Source: Desulfofundulus salinus
GTDB taxonomy: Bacteria > Bacillota > Desulfotomaculia > Desulfotomaculales > Desulfovirgulaceae
Length of the DNA: 64,000 nucleotides
Assembly (NCBI RefSeq): GCF_003627965.1
Contig: NZ_RBWE01000001.1
Span: 2,108,572-2,172,571, forward strand
Direction of reading: 5' to 3'
In this document: piece by piece, positions 84-40,410 of the stretch
Numbering within the stretch: position 1 is the stretch's first letter
How the letters are laid out: each line of letters opens with the position of its first letter
Notes under the pieces: model-generated
Database searches by the model: none
What the model was told of the DNA's origin: nothing
What the model saw: only the letters and a program-made list of their open reading frames with translations
Position numbers and translations under genes: made by a program

Positions 84-881
84 TCAGCAACTGGGTTCCT
101 TTCCGGTTAAGTGGCTTTTGTCCACCGGCCTCAAAGCGTCCCATAAACGCCGGATAATCCTTTCCCCAATACACTGGTGGGCCGGCGTTCCATCGGAACG
201 GAACATTTCCTGATAGGGAATGGCCACGGTGAAATAATTGTCGGCATCAAGATTACCCAGCAGGTCAACCTTTGCCTTCATGTGAATACGTAGCCCGTCC
301 TCTTCGTTTACAAAAATCATTTCAATGTGTTCAATGTGGCGAAAATCCGCCGGCGTGCCCGGACCGGAACAAAACTTAAACACCTGCTGCCGGGAGGTAG
401 AGGTAAGGCCACAGGAGGCAAAACCCAAATGCCAGGATAAGGCTTCCCATACGGCAGTGATAGCCGGGGAAGGCTTTATGGTCAGTTCGATCATGCGGGT
501 GACATCGGGGGCAAAGGCAATCACCACCTGTACACGCAAAAAACAACGGTGGTGATCACTGCTGATGGCCAGGTTCAGGGGCAGGTGCAAGGTGAAAGGT
601 AATTCCATCGTTTCGCCCGGATGTACGGTTACTTCCCTGGCCAGTTCCATTTTGGCCGCGCTTTCCCTTTGCCGGCGACGTCCCTTCCCCCCATCCTCCC
701 CCTCGTACCATTCCTCCAGTAATTCCAGCTGTATCCCCTTGATGCGCCGGGAAGTTCTTACCGCTTTCAAGAAAACTTCCCCTTGTACCGTGCCTCCCTG
801 GACATACTCCAGGAACGGCAAACGCACGTCCAGGGAGAGATCGGGGAAAACTTTCCCTTTTAAGTTATTCCATAAACTCAA
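84..881 (-). CDS. spo0M: Spo0M-like sporulation-control protein (arrestin fold)
   Basis: A protein of about 265 residues resembling the Spo0M (SpoOM) family, arrestin-like beta-sandwich proteins that affect Spo0A-dependent sporulation in Bacillus. The N-terminal half carries the typical hydrophobic beta-strand pattern (residues about 20-60: a VRLPFLEYVQGG stretch, then VQGEVFLKA). I prefer a TTG start at 881, directly after a strong purine-rich GGAGGGAGGG site; an open frame continues to a TTG at 899. Its 3' end stops 6 bp from the left inverted-repeat copy, so the last few residues may have been changed by that insertion. The assignment rests on recalled family features. Confidence 0.75.
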   Translation of the reverse strand: MSLWNNLKGKVFPDLSLDVRLPFLEYVQGGTVQGEVFLKAVRTSRRIKGIQLELLEEWYEGEDGGKGRRRQRESAAKMELAREVTVHPGETMELPFTLHLPLNLAISSDHHRCFLRVQVVIAFAPDVTRMIELTIKPSPAITAVWEALSWHLGFASCGLTSTSRQQVFKFCSGPGTPADFRHIEHIEMIFVNEEDGLRIHMKAKVDLLGNLDADNYFTVAIPYQEMFRSDGTPAHQCIGERIIRRLWDALRPVDKSHLTGKEPSC

Positions 882-914
882 CCCCCACCCTCCCTCCAAT
901 AAATTGGTCTCTTG

Positions 915-1208
915 CTAATTATTCGCTGTGGGAGCAAGTAATTCCTGCCCTTGGCAAACAGAAGTTAAGGCAAGATGTGCAATGGTTTCCACATCAAGGG
1001 GCAAACCGATACGCAAAAAATTTTCCACGCAGCGAATGGTCACATCGTCCATTATTTCCAGGGCTGTGGGAATAACCCCGACACCAATTATGGCGGTGAT
1101 GGTCCAGGCCGCCTCTTCGACAGTAATGACACCGGGCTCCACTATGGCCAACATCTCAGCAGGGTCTATTTTAACAATGATGTCACCTAACCTTATCCTG
1201 CTTTTTTC
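915..1208 (-). pseudogene. Remnant of a GlcD-type FAD-linked oxidase gene
   Basis: The open frame (first ATG at 1154, frame open up to a stop at 1209) joins two separate parts of a glycolate-oxidase GlcD-like protein. The first, VKIDPAEMLAIVEPGV, resembles the FAD-binding region. The second, IPTALEIMDDVTIRCVE followed by IGLPLDVE, resembles the C-terminal FAD-oxidase region. Roughly 150 residues expected between them are absent, and the tail then diverges. There is no convincing ribosome-binding site. I read it as an internally deleted, decayed gene; a novel 79-residue protein is the less likely alternative. Confidence 0.6.
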
Positions 1209-1575: not shown

Positions 1576-1800
1576 AAAAGACACCTCACTCCATGCTCTG
1601 GGCTTTCTTTTATTATATTAATCGAGCCATGGCGGGGTAAATTTTCTAAAGGCCAACAACATAAATGAAGCACCTAACTGACAGCAGAAAAGTTAAATGG
1701 TAAACTTTGAGGGGGCCTGGCCGCAATAGTCTCTTCTTTTGCCATTCAACCGACTTTAAAGCAGTTTAAACGGAAAAAAGCAATTTGGTTTTATTTACCA

Positions 1801-1828
1801 TTGAAGTAGTTGCATATAACCTGATAAA
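1801..1828 (+). promoter_or_regulatory. Candidate sigma-A promoter for the structured RNA
   Basis: TTGAAG (1801-1806), 16 bp, GATAAA (1823-1828) would start transcription near 1836. A second reading is TTGCAT (1810-1815), 17 bp, TAATAA (1833-1838). Both are imperfect. The surrounding stretch 1576-1800 is AT-rich and I see nothing else in it. Confidence 0.4.
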
Positions 1829-1835
1829 AGGGTAA

Positions 1836-2290
1836 TAATACGAACAACAGGGTCGGTAATGGCCGAGCCAAGACTGCTACAGGGTCGCAAATGGCTCTGT
1901 AGCAGTCGGCCAAAGGTTGATATCGGGTCACATTGGCTCGATATCAGCCGGCGGGCAGATCAATGGAGGTTCCGGCAGGCTCGGCAGCAGTCCGAAGGAC
2001 TGCTGCCGGGTCGTAAGGGATATCCATTGATCGAGCTAAGATCAGTACAGGTGCCGGAGTATTTTTGTCGGCTACGACTAAAATAGAGAGGTCTGGTGCA
2101 GTCGAGAGATTGCATCAGGCTTCCCAGGTATCTGCACTGGTCGAGCAAAGGTCATTACGGGTTCCGTAATGGTCCGCGGTAGCCGAAAGGTTACCGTGGG
2201 CTATGCAGGGATGCGTAATGGCTGTAGCGCAGGTCATTACCGGCTCGAAAAAGAAACCCTTCTCCAATGGAGAAGGGTTTCTTATTTATA
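1836..2290 (+). ncRNA. Candidate large structured non-coding RNA, class not recognised
   Basis: No plausible ORF covers this stretch, but it folds by eye into a closed multi-helix RNA. P1 is 1850-1864 with 2232-2246 (15 bp, including three G-U pairs). P2 is the hairpin 1872-1907 (15-bp stem). P3 is the hairpin 1915-1949 (15 bp). P4 is 1958-1967 with 2023-2032 (10 bp), enclosing hairpin 1978-2012 (16 bp, GAA loop). P5 is 2040-2052 with 2130-2142 (one mismatch), enclosing hairpins 2053-2072 and 2089-2122. P6 is 2150-2174, P7 is 2175-2198 (GAAA tetraloop) and P8 is 2200-2228. An intrinsic terminator follows. Many pairs are G-U on this strand and would be A-C on the other, so the plus strand is the transcribed one. 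The pairing GGGUC with GGCUC recurs in P1, P2, P3 and the P4 hairpin. Lacking their signature sequences, it is not tmRNA, RNase P RNA or 6S RNA. Ends are approximate. Confidence 0.75.
2251..2290. terminator. Bidirectional intrinsic terminator between the structured RNA and ileS
   Basis: A 15-bp stem (2251-2265 with 2269-2283) has a 3-nt loop. On the minus strand a T-rich tract (TTTCTTTTTC) follows, terminating ileS. On the plus strand TTTCTTATTTAT follows, terminating the structured RNA. The two transcripts converge here. Confidence 0.85.
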
Positions 2291-2331
2291 GTGCTGCAGG
2301 TTTTAAAACTGATGGTGCGCCAGTCCCGCGT

Positions 2332-5115
2332 TTACCCCAGTGTTCCCACGACGTCCACACAGCGGGGGCACAGGGTGGGATGCTCCTGGTGCCGGCCAAC
2401 GCCGGGGTGATACATCCAGCACCGCTCACATTTTTCTCCCGGCGCCCTTTCCACCACCACCGCCAGCCCCGGGATTATTTCAGAAACCACCGCCTTTTCC
2501 GGCAGGTCCCCGGTCCACTTTTTAAGCTCCACGGCGGAGACGATGAAAATGGTAGGTAAATCCTGGACCCTGGACAGAAAATCGTACATTTCCTCCCGGG
2601 CGTACAAGATCACTGCAGCCTCCAGGGAGTTGCCGATTACTTTTTCCCGCCGGGCCGCCTCCAGGGCCCGGGTAACCTCTCCCCGCACGGCCAGCAGGCG
2701 TTCCCACCTGGACTCCAGCTCTACATCCAGGTAATCTTCGTTAACCTGGGGCATGTCGGTTAACTGTACACTTACCGGCGCATCCTTTTCTTTCGGGGCA
2801 TAGCGCCAGATTTCCTCCGTGGTAAAGGCCAGAATAGGTGCAAGCAAGCGTACCAGGGCATGTAATACCTGGTAGAGCACAGTCTGGGCCGCCCGGCGTT
2901 CCGGGGATTGGGCGGAGGTGGTGTAGAGCCGGTCTTTAATCATATCCAGATACAGCGCGCTCATATCAATGGTACAGAAGTGATGAATGGTATGGAAAAC
3001 CACATGGTACTCGTAATCCCTGTAGGCAGCCAGCACCCGCTCCATCATCCGGTGCAGGCGCAAAAGCGCCCAGCGATCCATCTCGGGAAGCCGGTCATAA
3101 GGTACCTGGTCGCCGGGTCCGAAGTCATACAGGTTCCCCAATAAAAACCGGCAGGTATTGCGGATCTTGCGGTAGGCTTCGGTCATTTGCTTGAGAATGT
3201 TCTGCGATACCGCCAGATCACCCCGGTAGTCGGCAGAGCTCACCCACAGGCGCAAAATATCGGCACCCATTTGATCGACAATCTTCAGGGGATCGATTAC
3301 ATTACCCAGGGATTTGCTCATCTTACGGCCCTGTTCATCAACCACAAAACCGTGAGTAAGCACAGCCCGGTACGGGGCCTGACCCCGCACCGCCACCGCC
3401 GTGGACAGGGAACTGTTAAACCAGCCCCGGTGCTGGTCGCTGCCTTCCAGGTAGAGATCCGCCGGCCAGCGCAGTTCCGGCCAGATGTCCGGTTGCTCCA
3501 GCACGCCCACGTGGGAAGTGCCGCTGTCAAACCAGACATCCATGATATCGGTTTCCTTGGTAAACTCGCCGGCCCCGCAGGACGGGCATTTGAACCCGGA
3601 AGGAAGCAGTTCCGCCGCTTCCCGCACAAACCAGACATCCGAACCGTGCTCCTTGAACAATCCCTGCAGGTGGGATATGGTTTCTTCGGTAATAATTTCC
3701 TTGCCGCAACCGGTGCAGTAAAAGATGGGTATGGGAACGCCCCAGGTCCGCTGCCGGGAAATGCACCAGTCGCCGCGGTTGGCCACCATATTGTAAATGC
3801 GCTCTTCTCCCCAGGCCGGGATCCAGCGCACCTGGCGGATGGCCTCCAGAGCTTTCTGGCGAAAGCCCTCAATAGAAGCAAACCATTGTTCCGTAGCCCG
3901 GAAAAAAACCGGCCTTTTACAACGCCAGCAGTGGGGGTACTGGTGGTTTATGGTATCGCTTTTAAGCAGTTTACCCCTGGCCCTTAACTCGGCAATGATG
4001 CCCTCGTTGGCGTCCGTATAAAACTGTCCGGCAAACTGCCCCGCTTCCCCGGTAAAACGCCCCCGGCCGTCAATAGGAGACAGGATGGGCAAACCGTAGC
4101 GCTGCCCCACCAGGTAGTCTTCGTGGCCGTGGCCCGGAGCAGTGTGCACGCAGCCGGTACCGGCATCCAGGGTAACGTGATCCCCTAAAATGACCAGGGA
4201 ATCCCGTTCAATAAAGGGATGCCCCAGAACCACGCCCTCCAGGTCACTGCCGGCAAACTCTTCTTTAATGGTCCAATCATTGAGTCCCACAGCCCGGGCA
4301 AAAGAAGGCAGCAGTTCTTTAGCCACCACATATTCCTCTTCCCCGGAGGCCACCAGAACATAGGTAAAATCGGGATGCAGGCAAACGGCCACGTTGGCAA
4401 TTAACGTCCAGGGAGTGGTAGTCCAGATGACCACCTGGCTGCCCGCCGGCAAACGCCCCTTTCCATCCTTTACGGGAAAACGAACATAGATGGACGGGGA
4501 CTTTTTATCCTGATATTCCACTTCCGCCTCAGCCAGGGCCGTTTCACAGGTGGCACACCAGTAAACGGGTTTTAAGCCCTTGTAAATGTAACCCCGGCGG
4601 GCCATTTCCCCGAAGACGCCAATTTGCGCCGCCTCATAGTGGGGCATCAGGGTGAGATAGGGATGCTCCCAGTCTCCACGCACGCCCAGGCGCTTAAACT
4701 CCTGCCGCTGGACGTCCACAAATTTCAAGGCGTATTCCCTGCACTTGTGCCGGAACTCCACCGGGTGAACGGCATGCCGGTTTAACCCCAGGTTTTTAAT
4801 GGCCTGCTGTTCAATGGGCAACCCGTGGGTATCCCAGCCAGGCACATAGGGGGCATCGTAGCCGGCCATGGAGTGATACTTGATTACAATATCCTTGAGC
4901 ACCTTGTTCAGGGCAGTCCCCAGGTGGATGTGCCCGTTGGCGTAGGGCGGCCCGTCATGCAGAATAAACTTGGGCCGGCCGGCATTTTTTTGCTGTACGA
5001 GGCGGTAAATATTAATTTCATCCCAGAATTTTAAAATCTCCGGTTCCCGTTGGGGCAGATTGGCCCGCATGGGAAAATCGGTTTTGGGCAGGTTTAAGGT
5101 CTGGCTGTAATCCAT
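2332..5115 (-). CDS. ileS: Isoleucyl-tRNA synthetase
   Basis: A class I aminoacyl-tRNA synthetase of 927 residues that charges tRNA-Ile in the cytoplasm. The HIGH-type motif is HIHLG near residue 63 (in PPYANGHIHLGTA), and the KMSKS loop is intact (GRKMSKSLGN, near residue 600). A long editing domain lies between them. The C-terminal zinc site CERCWMYHPG...CPRC near residues 895-920 is present, as in bacterial IleRS. Its own promoter and an isoleucine T-box leader lie upstream, and a bidirectional terminator follows. In related genomes ileS closes the ylm/divIVA group; here about 19 kb of accessory DNA lies between them. Confidence 0.98.
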   Translation of the reverse strand: MDYSQTLNLPKTDFPMRANLPQREPEILKFWDEINIYRLVQQKNAGRPKFILHDGPPYANGHIHLGTALNKVLKDIVIKYHSMAGYDAPYVPGWDTHGLPIEQQAIKNLGLNRHAVHPVEFRHKCREYALKFVDVQRQEFKRLGVRGDWEHPYLTLMPHYEAAQIGVFGEMARRGYIYKGLKPVYWCATCETALAEAEVEYQDKKSPSIYVRFPVKDGKGRLPAGSQVVIWTTTPWTLIANVAVCLHPDFTYVLVASGEEEYVVAKELLPSFARAVGLNDWTIKEEFAGSDLEGVVLGHPFIERDSLVILGDHVTLDAGTGCVHTAPGHGHEDYLVGQRYGLPILSPIDGRGRFTGEAGQFAGQFYTDANEGIIAELRARGKLLKSDTINHQYPHCWRCKRPVFFRATEQWFASIEGFRQKALEAIRQVRWIPAWGEERIYNMVANRGDWCISRQRTWGVPIPIFYCTGCGKEIITEETISHLQGLFKEHGSDVWFVREAAELLPSGFKCPSCGAGEFTKETDIMDVWFDSGTSHVGVLEQPDIWPELRWPADLYLEGSDQHRGWFNSSLSTAVAVRGQAPYRAVLTHGFVVDEQGRKMSKSLGNVIDPLKIVDQMGADILRLWVSSADYRGDLAVSQNILKQMTEAYRKIRNTCRFLLGNLYDFGPGDQVPYDRLPEMDRWALLRLHRMMERVLAAYRDYEYHVVFHTIHHFCTIDMSALYLDMIKDRLYTTSAQSPERRAAQTVLYQVLHALVRLLAPILAFTTEEIWRYAPKEKDAPVSVQLTDMPQVNEDYLDVELESRWERLLAVRGEVTRALEAARREKVIGNSLEAAVILYAREEMYDFLSRVQDLPTIFIVSAVELKKWTGDLPEKAVVSEIIPGLAVVVERAPGEKCERCWMYHPGVGRHQEHPTLCPRCVDVVGTLG

Positions 5116-39534: not shown

Positions 39535-40410
39535 TTACTCCGCAGTTCGGCTACTCCAGAAACGATCCAACCAGCCCTGCACACCGGCGAAGAAGTCCAG
39601 AATGCGGAAGCGAAATTCCACGGGCGTGCCGTCGGAGGAATTCGCTCTTAATACGACACCCTCGTCTTCACCGGCCCGGTGGACGGGAGCCAGGGTGGCT
39701 ACGGCGGGGGGCCCGGTCCATTTAAAAGCCGGCTGCGCTTTTGAACCCGTCGCGGCATCCAGTTCCCCTTCTCTGCTTTCATCCGCCGGGGACAAAGGTT
39801 TTTGCTCCGGCTTTTTTTCAGCCGGATCATGCTTCACCCCGGGGTCCGGCCGGGGCGGGTTTTCCCGTTCGCCGGCACAAGGTCCGGCAGAATTGTGAAG
39901 CTCTACAAAACATAGGGGCGGGAACAACACGCACCACCAGTTCGCCCCGGCACCCCGGCCGATGACCACCCTCACCGCTTCATATTCACCGGCGGGCAGG
40001 GTCAGGTCATGAACTTCTCCCGGGTTGGCATTAGCCACGCGATAGGTTTTCGCCGGAAACCGGTAGTGACCCAGGGAAACGGTGACAGGGTAATCCGCCC
40101 CGGCATTGCGGATTGCCTGCCTGGCTAGTTGCTCCATGTAATCCAGGTTGGCCCGGGCGATGATCCTGGCTTCTTCAATATTGCGGGCCTGCTGGAAGCT
40201 AGGGGTCATGGCCTGGATAAGCACATCCCGCACCCGGTATTTCAGCGCCTGGTCGGCAGGCGAGTCACTGTTGGCAATGACATGGAAGCGGATCAGGTGA
40301 TCGGGACGGTAAGGGTTAACCATGGCAGCCCTGTGCCAGCCCCAGCCAGCCAGCAGCGCCACCGCCAGCACGCCCGCAACCCAAAAGCCGATCCGCCTTT
40401 GCGAGAGCAT
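39535..40410 (-). CDS. spoIIR: Stage II sporulation protein R
   Basis: A 291-residue SpoIIR homologue, the forespore signal that triggers pro-sigma-E processing by SpoIIGA across the septum. An N-terminal membrane/secretion segment (about residues 8-27) is followed by the conserved LIRFHVIANSDSPADQALKYRVRD. Past residue about 190 is a proline/glutamate-rich linker (PDPGVKHDPAEKKPE) longer than in Bacillus, then a short end domain. A perfect sigma-F promoter lies about 48 nt before its start. Its partner spoIIGA-sigE is 2 kb upstream. Confidence 0.95.
   Translation of the reverse strand: MLSQRRIGFWVAGVLAVALLAGWGWHRAAMVNPYRPDHLIRFHVIANSDSPADQALKYRVRDVLIQAMTPSFQQARNIEEARIIARANLDYMEQLARQAIRNAGADYPVTVSLGHYRFPAKTYRVANANPGEVHDLTLPAGEYEAVRVVIGRGAGANWWCVLFPPLCFVELHNSAGPCAGERENPPRPDPGVKHDPAEKKPEQKPLSPADESREGELDAATGSKAQPAFKWTGPPAVATLAPVHRAGEDEGVVLRANSSDGTPVEFRFRILDFFAGVQGWLDRFWSSRTAE

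Follow-up and report, generated by a model that had tools for sequence, protein, structure and literature searches.

The DNA analysed here is a stretch of 64,000 nucleotides (the window) from Desulfofundulus salinus (contig NZ_RBWE01000001.1, positions 2,108,572 to 2,172,571 of the forward strand). It encodes on its plus strand, at positions 1850-2246, a structured RNA of about 400 nt, which we call the six-armed RNA after the six helices that leave its single junction. This structured RNA is real: its fold, its covariation, the repetition of its parts, its spread and its independence of context are established. It apparently represents a new, undescribed class of large structured RNA, kin in kind both to the large structured RNAs and to the forespore RNAs. 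A multi-branched RNA had been proposed at this place from the letters of the sequence (the original prediction); the repeated architecture, the presence of a wobble module in every helix, the promoter (1808-1840) and the link with sporulation reported below go beyond that proposal.

A six-helix fold and its repeated parts

The plus strand of 1850-2246 folds with a minimum free energy of -253.7 kcal/mol (z -21.1), and none of 100 shuffled sequences was equally stable. The minus strand reaches -153.7 kcal/mol (z -9.5), 100 kcal/mol worse, in agreement with the original choice of the plus strand as the RNA. Covariation was analysed in an alignment (A2) of 48 copies, the window's own included, with pairwise identities of 55-98% (median 69%). 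RNAalifold predicted 143 pairs on A2, 104 of them with two-sided changes. The structure was then edited by hand: the predicted pairs 155/196 and 330/335 (A2 columns) were dropped, and pair 298/330, which is G.U in 47/48 rows, was added. In the edited structure 97.9% of the 6773 cells are paired, and two-sided changes occur at 103/142 pairs. Its covariation score is 0.485, compared with 0.08-0.13 when the partners are slid by 1-3 columns, which also lowers the pairing to 30-41%, and none of 500 column shuffles attained any of five covariation measures; part of this contrast with slid and shuffled pairings is expected, because the edited structure was derived from the same 48 rows. We aligned 49 further copies afterwards, related to the first set, giving 97 rows with the 48 of A2, and 6858 of the 6956 cells in these copies pair under the edited structure. 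The homologues and covariation by which the original prediction was to be checked are both present, as BLASTN and covariance-model matches and as compensatory changes. A coding gene was rejected, in line with the earlier view that no plausible open reading frame covers the RNA: the one frame followed across relatives, 75 codons from an ATG at 1859, is not kept, remaining open for at least 70 codons in just 9/97 rows.

Of the six helices, P1, arm 1 and arm 2 have 15 bp each, and arms 3, 4 and 5 share a common plan of base helix, internal loop and tip helix. P1 closes the domain exactly as first described, its 5' strand (1850-1864; 99.6% of cells paired, two-sided changes at 9/15 pairs) pairing with a 3' strand (2232-2246) assigned from fold and covariation. 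It is extended by a GC (1867-1868) that pairs with 2227-2228 (99.0% of cells paired) and is weakly supported, because no two-sided change occurs there. Arm 1 (1872-1907) is a 15-bp hairpin with two-sided changes at 13/15 pairs, and arm 2 (1910-1954) consists of a weakly supported CC/GG base, an A-rich internal loop and a 15-bp hairpin, with such changes at 11/15. The base helix of arm 3 (1958-2032) has 16 bp (14/16 with two-sided changes) and leads through an internal loop to the tip helix (1979-1992/1998-2011; 10/14). In arm 4 (2035-2146) the base (2035-2037/2144-2146 and 2040-2055/2127-2142; 14/19) and a variable insert precede a tip with a GNRA loop (2090-2103/2108-2121; 9/14), and in arm 5 (2150-2223) the base (2150-2165/2208-2223; 12/15) is joined by a GUA/GCA internal loop to a tip with a GAAA loop (2170-2184/2189-2203; 10/15). 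Beside P1 the consensus structure holds ten further helix segments, two of just 2 bp, where at least eight had been claimed. The arm-4 insert (A2 columns 242-297) is highly variable in length and is the freest-varying part of the RNA. Two copies (L046 and L049) lack the arm 3 tip; in another (L016, one of two in genome G039) the outer part of the P1 5' strand is altered and the end of the arm 1 3' strand is missing, and this copy is perhaps a decaying duplicate.

The base helices of arms 3, 4 and 5 each carry a near-invariant U-A pair (146/204, 238/339 and 372/426, in 48, 48 and 47 of 48 rows). GNRA loops end arms 4 and 5 in 94/97 and 95/97 rows, and the GAAA tetraloop noticed originally, at 2185-2188, is GAAA in 92/97. 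Arms 1 and 2 have variable hairpin loops, of which the 97 rows show 61 and 69 different forms. The junction linkers approximate GAGCNAA, their commonest forms in the same rows being GAGCCAA, GGCCAAA, GGCGGGCA, GAGCUAA, GAGCAAA and GUAGCGUA.

Each of the six helices contains one 5'-GNU-3'/5'-GNU-3' module, in which a Watson-Crick pair stands between two wobble pairs. In P1 (1851-1853), arm 1 (1883-1885/1894-1896) and arm 2 (1926-1928/1936-1938) the module occupies base pairs 12-14 counted from the junction; in arms 3, 4 and 5 it lies in the tip helix. Among the 46-48 A2 rows with letters at these positions, each of the twelve module wobble pairs is kept as G.U or U.G in 42-48 (the lowest being 42/47), and in the 49 further copies the wobble is retained in 46-49. 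At module pair 48/65, three copies have flipped from G.U to U.G with the wobble retained. Four of the wobble pairs that the original prediction named are conserved as such: 1851-2245 (A2 pair 14/460, wobble in 42/47 rows), 1853-2243 (16/458, 45/48), 1862-2234 (25/449, 42/48) and 2182-2191 (397/406, 43/48). Of the others, 2096-2115 (304/324) is G.U in the window but mostly Watson-Crick in other copies, and the "2082-type" positions fall inside the variable arm-4 insert, outside the conserved structure. A covariance model made from arm 5 (R1) matched arm 2 (1902-1972; 39.3 bits, E 2.3e-11) and the arm-4 tip (2087-2126; 24.2 bits, E 1.1e-6); arm 2, the arm-4 tip and arm 5 are repeats in the statistical sense.

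Spread, promoter and the link with sporulation

BLASTN found the RNA at E 1e-5 or better in 42/60 genomes, its own included, some with two or three copies at different places. The R1 model found it at E 0.001 in 165/398 sampled genomes of the phylum, again counting its own, which is a lower bound because the filters were strict. An exact pattern scan of one genome per species (84,980 species) returned 62 stretches, of which a profile confirmed 61, four of them in part or split; the one left over (L145) is titled Bacteroidetes. Confirmed carriers include Desulfotomaculum, Pelotomaculum, Carboxydocella, Ammonifex, Desulforudis, Sporotomaculum, Thermoanaerobacterales and Tepidanaerobacteraceae, and the titles of the confirmed stretches assigned to Actinobacteria (L124, L132) and Deltaproteobacteria (L116) look wrong. 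Two copies stand near each other in Sporotomaculum syntrophicum (L108, in tandem at 685-1078 and 1193-1584 of that locus) and in L084 (about 2.2 kb apart).

In the window the RNA is preceded by a forespore-type promoter on the plus strand (1808-1840), composed of the -35 element AGTTGCATA (1808-1816), a 14-nt spacer and the -10 element GGTAATAATA (1831-1840); an ssp spore-protein gene of the genus has a promoter laid out alike. It is followed by the intrinsic terminator already seen in the original prediction, a stem of 15 bp with a T-rich tail (2251-2283). Promoter and terminator together predict a transcript of about 440 nt (1846-2283), starting some 6-7 nt past the -10 box. A similar hairpin lies 3' of the RNA in the 16 rows listed, of the 48 aligned. 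The upstream regions of 96 unique copies, a set that excludes L065, L075 and other partial matches, share a motif of K.ATA, 14-15 nt (93/96) and GGNCATAMTA, which ends about ten bases ahead of P1 (in the window, 1840 versus 1850). This layout is that of forespore promoters.

The motif was scored against random windows. A matrix trained on 47 copies of the order was applied to 22 others, of which 21 lie outside the order and one (L113) has no stated kinship, with the close relatives L062/L063 and L077/L079 among them. In this test 21/22 copies scored above the 99% level of random windows (area under the curve 0.998), and 20/22 above the 99% level of shuffled upstreams. It is the only kept-out test, because the matrix of the 96 upstreams was trained on the RNA upstreams themselves. 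The RNA matrix also matched the upstreams of ssp genes (30 loci, one per genome), 24/30 above the 95% level and 17/30 above the 99% level set by random windows of 130 bases, RNA upstreams left out, although some of the ssp and spoIIR stretches searched were longer than these windows, which slightly favours matches. Four of the six Desulfofundulus ssp loci read ATA, 14 nt and GGCCATAATA; one has GGTCATAATA and one GCCCATAATA after 15 nt. In Clostridioides difficile, ssp genes are SigG-dependent, the SigF and SigG consensus sequences are alike and resemble those of Bacillus subtilis, and SigF promoters have a G ahead of the -10 (PMC3789822); an overlap of SigF and SigG promoters is likewise described (PMC7438776). 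From these upstream sequences we strongly infer that the promoter is of the forespore SigG/SigF type and that the RNA, ended by its own terminator, would be expressed in the forespore.

A sigma-A promoter was rejected, a sigma-A-like pattern being present in just 3/96 RNA upstreams and no sigma-70-type site in window positions 1700-2400. These counts, and the persistence of the forespore motif in the kept-out copies, make it very unlikely that we have misread the promoter of a growth-phase structured RNA transcribed by the housekeeping machinery in the manner of raiA/ModT, even though loss of ModT, a structured RNA of Bacillota, leads to a sporulation defect (PMC11706538). The six-armed RNA resembles the raiA motif/ModT in being a widespread, sporulation-linked structured RNA of Bacillota. 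According to the same paper, however, raiA/ModT is abundant in growing cells, and the six-armed RNA has no Rfam match to it.

SpoIVA was found in 336/398 sampled genomes: 160 carry both the RNA and SpoIVA, 5 the RNA alone, 176 SpoIVA alone and 57 neither. SpoIVA is thus present in 160/165 RNA-bearing genomes versus 176/233 without an RNA match (Fisher p 4.5e-10, uncorrected for kinship). The five RNA-bearing genomes without a SpoIVA match all carry small acid-soluble spore protein (SASP) genes, and spore genes occur in 165/165 RNA-bearing genomes. Since it is present in under half of the SpoIVA-bearing genomes (160/336), the RNA would be an accessory rather than a core sporulation factor.

Genomic neighbours and comparison with known RNAs

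Upstream neighbours of the RNA form 53 clusters in 93 loci and downstream neighbours 58 clusters in 94 loci (frames of at least 70 aa called mechanically, singletons counted as clusters, some loci with just 1.5 kb of flank), and in 68/94 loci the nearest downstream frame is on the opposite strand. Because the neighbours vary by lineage, we regard the RNA as a stand-alone gene and not as the leader of one gene; a cis-regulatory leader was rejected, as no downstream gene in the same direction is conserved. The genes for ileS, SpoIVA, SpoVT and RecJ are among the neighbours. In the window, a Spo0M-family gene (84-899, minus strand; PF07070, E 3.2e-18) lies upstream of the RNA gene, and a 79-aa frame (915-1154, minus strand) matches an FAD-oxidase C-terminal family and is perhaps a gene remnant. 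An ordinary T-box leader (RF00230; 5182-5423, minus strand) stands upstream of ileS, a SpoIIR gene (PF09551 match) lies at about 39898-40302 (minus strand), and an ssp-like gene is found about 2.3 kb ahead of the window start.

The RNA matched no plasmid, its exact pattern was absent from viral contigs, and the only matches in phages were 42 bases at E 0.04, so a phage or plasmid element was rejected. A mobile or repetitive DNA element, with hairpins that act as DNA, could account for the two or three copies at separate places in some genomes and for the tandem copies of L108. It is nonetheless an extremely improbable explanation: apart from the negative searches, promoter and terminator are kept, and on the other strand, which folds so much worse, A.C mismatches would stand in place of the conserved G.U pairs.

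Rfam 15, searched with covariance models at curated cut-offs, gave no match on the RNA in the window, the T-box elsewhere being the sole match there, and none on the RNA in 20 loci of relatives, where 16S rRNA and c-di-GMP riboswitch matches fell outside it. The best sub-threshold match on the RNA had 22 bits versus a cut-off of 70. We take this library to include OLE, GOLLD, ROOL, raiA, tmRNA, RNase P and 6S. The absence of tmRNA, RNase P and 6S signatures, as first asserted, is borne out, and other Rfam RNAs are ruled out as well. The suggested likeness to OLE, GOLLD and ROOL stands in so far as all are large structured RNAs of unknown function, but no Rfam model matches. We know of no RNA with this six-armed architecture. 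A literature search that covered few subscription journals or preprints found no title or abstract describing such an RNA; the main text of PMC6429828 and PMC11109978 holds no relevant mention under Desulfotomaculum, Moorella and similar terms, and the available part of PMC12456014 contains nothing on it.

Possible roles in the spore

The best explanation, which we hold to be probable though far from assured, is a stand-alone large structured forespore RNA that would serve in trans as a scaffold bearing docking modules. Forespore RNA polymerase with SigG and/or SigF would transcribe the gene up to its own terminator, and the transcript would fold into a rigid six-helix junction with three 15-bp helices and three longer arms of one plan. 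Copies of one partner, either a protein of the forespore or further molecules of the same RNA, may then dock at the six equivalent modules. The particle so formed would serve the spore during maturation or dormancy, for instance by contributing to its resistance or by silencing the machinery of its core. Conservation is concentrated in the modules, the joints, the internal loops and the GNRA loops of two arms and not in the loops of arms 1 and 2, which argues for a three-dimensional scaffold rather than an antisense RNA, and the equivalence of the six modules suggests that a single kind of partner docks repeatedly.

Several points weigh against this explanation. SigF and SigG promoters overlap, so either sigma factor may be the one used; forespore expression is read from sequence, and the scaffold step is itself inferred. 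Upstreams of spoIIR, a SigF gene, fit the RNA matrix less well than those of ssp (17/30 above the 95% and 1/30 above the 99% level, with the same slight bias), and 12/96 RNA copies fall below the 99% level although the matrix was trained on them. The RNA went unmatched, under strict filters, in 176 SpoIVA-bearing genomes, and the SpoIVA association, besides its lack of correction for kinship, assumes that the searches for RNA and SpoIVA sampled the same 398 genomes. As to the architecture, nine pairs outside the modules reach 80% wobble or more in A2 as well, and the short junction pairs are poorly supported, with two-sided changes of 0 (P1 extension) and 1 (arm 2 base). The arm-5 model did not find arms 1 and 3 in its scan of the window, and for this reason the full three-plus-three grouping is our own reading from matching positions and motifs.

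The nearest precedents among forespore RNAs are found in Bacillus. Bvs196/S547 and CsfG are forespore RNA genes controlled by SigF/SigG. Bvs196 has independent transcription and a stable, conserved fold (reported as 294 nt and -82 kcal/mol), and its loss makes spores less resistant to heat and UV (PMC9147052). Among structured forespore RNAs with an effect on spore resistance, Bvs196 is the nearest precedent. The six-armed RNA shares with Bvs196 and CsfG, at the level of sequence, a SigF/SigG-type promoter and its own terminator. It differs from what is reported of them in its size (about 400 nt, -254 kcal/mol), its six arms with repeated modules and its occurrence in Desulfotomaculum-type and other anaerobic spore formers. 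The same promoter type and terminator would suit a Bvs196-like antisense-type small RNA of the forespore that pairs with spore mRNAs to tune translation. However, most of the conserved bases either are paired or belong to the joints, the internal loops or the GNRA ends of arms 4 and 5, arms 1 and 2 have unconserved hairpin loops, and no long conserved single-stranded seed was seen, mRNA targets not having been searched for; an antisense role appears quite unlikely.

An RNA-only homo-oligomer, a cage or lattice like GOLLD, ROOL or OLE deposited in the spore core, would agree with the rigid arms of fixed length, the six equivalent modules, the A-rich joints and the GNRA loops that end arms 4 and 5, and GOLLD, ROOL and OLE do oligomerise without protein (PMC12286853). 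Against it, the loops of arms 1 and 2 vary and offer no conserved kissing loop, no Rfam match to these three families exists, and the raiA motif, also large, is monomeric according to the same source; we judge it unlikely, if conceivable. In a related proposal, to which we also give a small chance, a pseudo-symmetric RNA born of internal duplication would form a regular RNA or ribonucleoprotein lattice stored in dormant spores, its six modules docking mutually, onto the A-rich joints of neighbours, or onto a single forespore protein present in six copies. The six-armed RNA is, like GOLLD and ROOL, large, ornate and multi-helix, with a possible quaternary structure; those two form RNA nanocages (PMC12286853), whereas the six-armed RNA has no Rfam, plasmid or viral-contig match and in phages just the 42 bases mentioned. 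With OLE it shares being a large structured RNA of anaerobic or extremophile Gram-positives whose biochemical function is open, but OLE, as reported, has about 600 nt, and the six-armed RNA, of about 400 nt, has no Rfam match.

Bacteria have few large structured RNAs whose function is unknown, and little points to the time at which many of these act. The six-armed RNA is widespread in anaerobic spore formers and comes with a testable prediction for its expression, in the forespore under SigG/SigF. Its unusually regular architecture, with twelve wobble pairs kept as wobble across lineages, makes it a strong target for cryo-electron microscopy. Whether spores contain an RNA dedicated to structure or regulation can now be tested directly, and the lattice, if true, would mean a structural role for RNA in dormancy.
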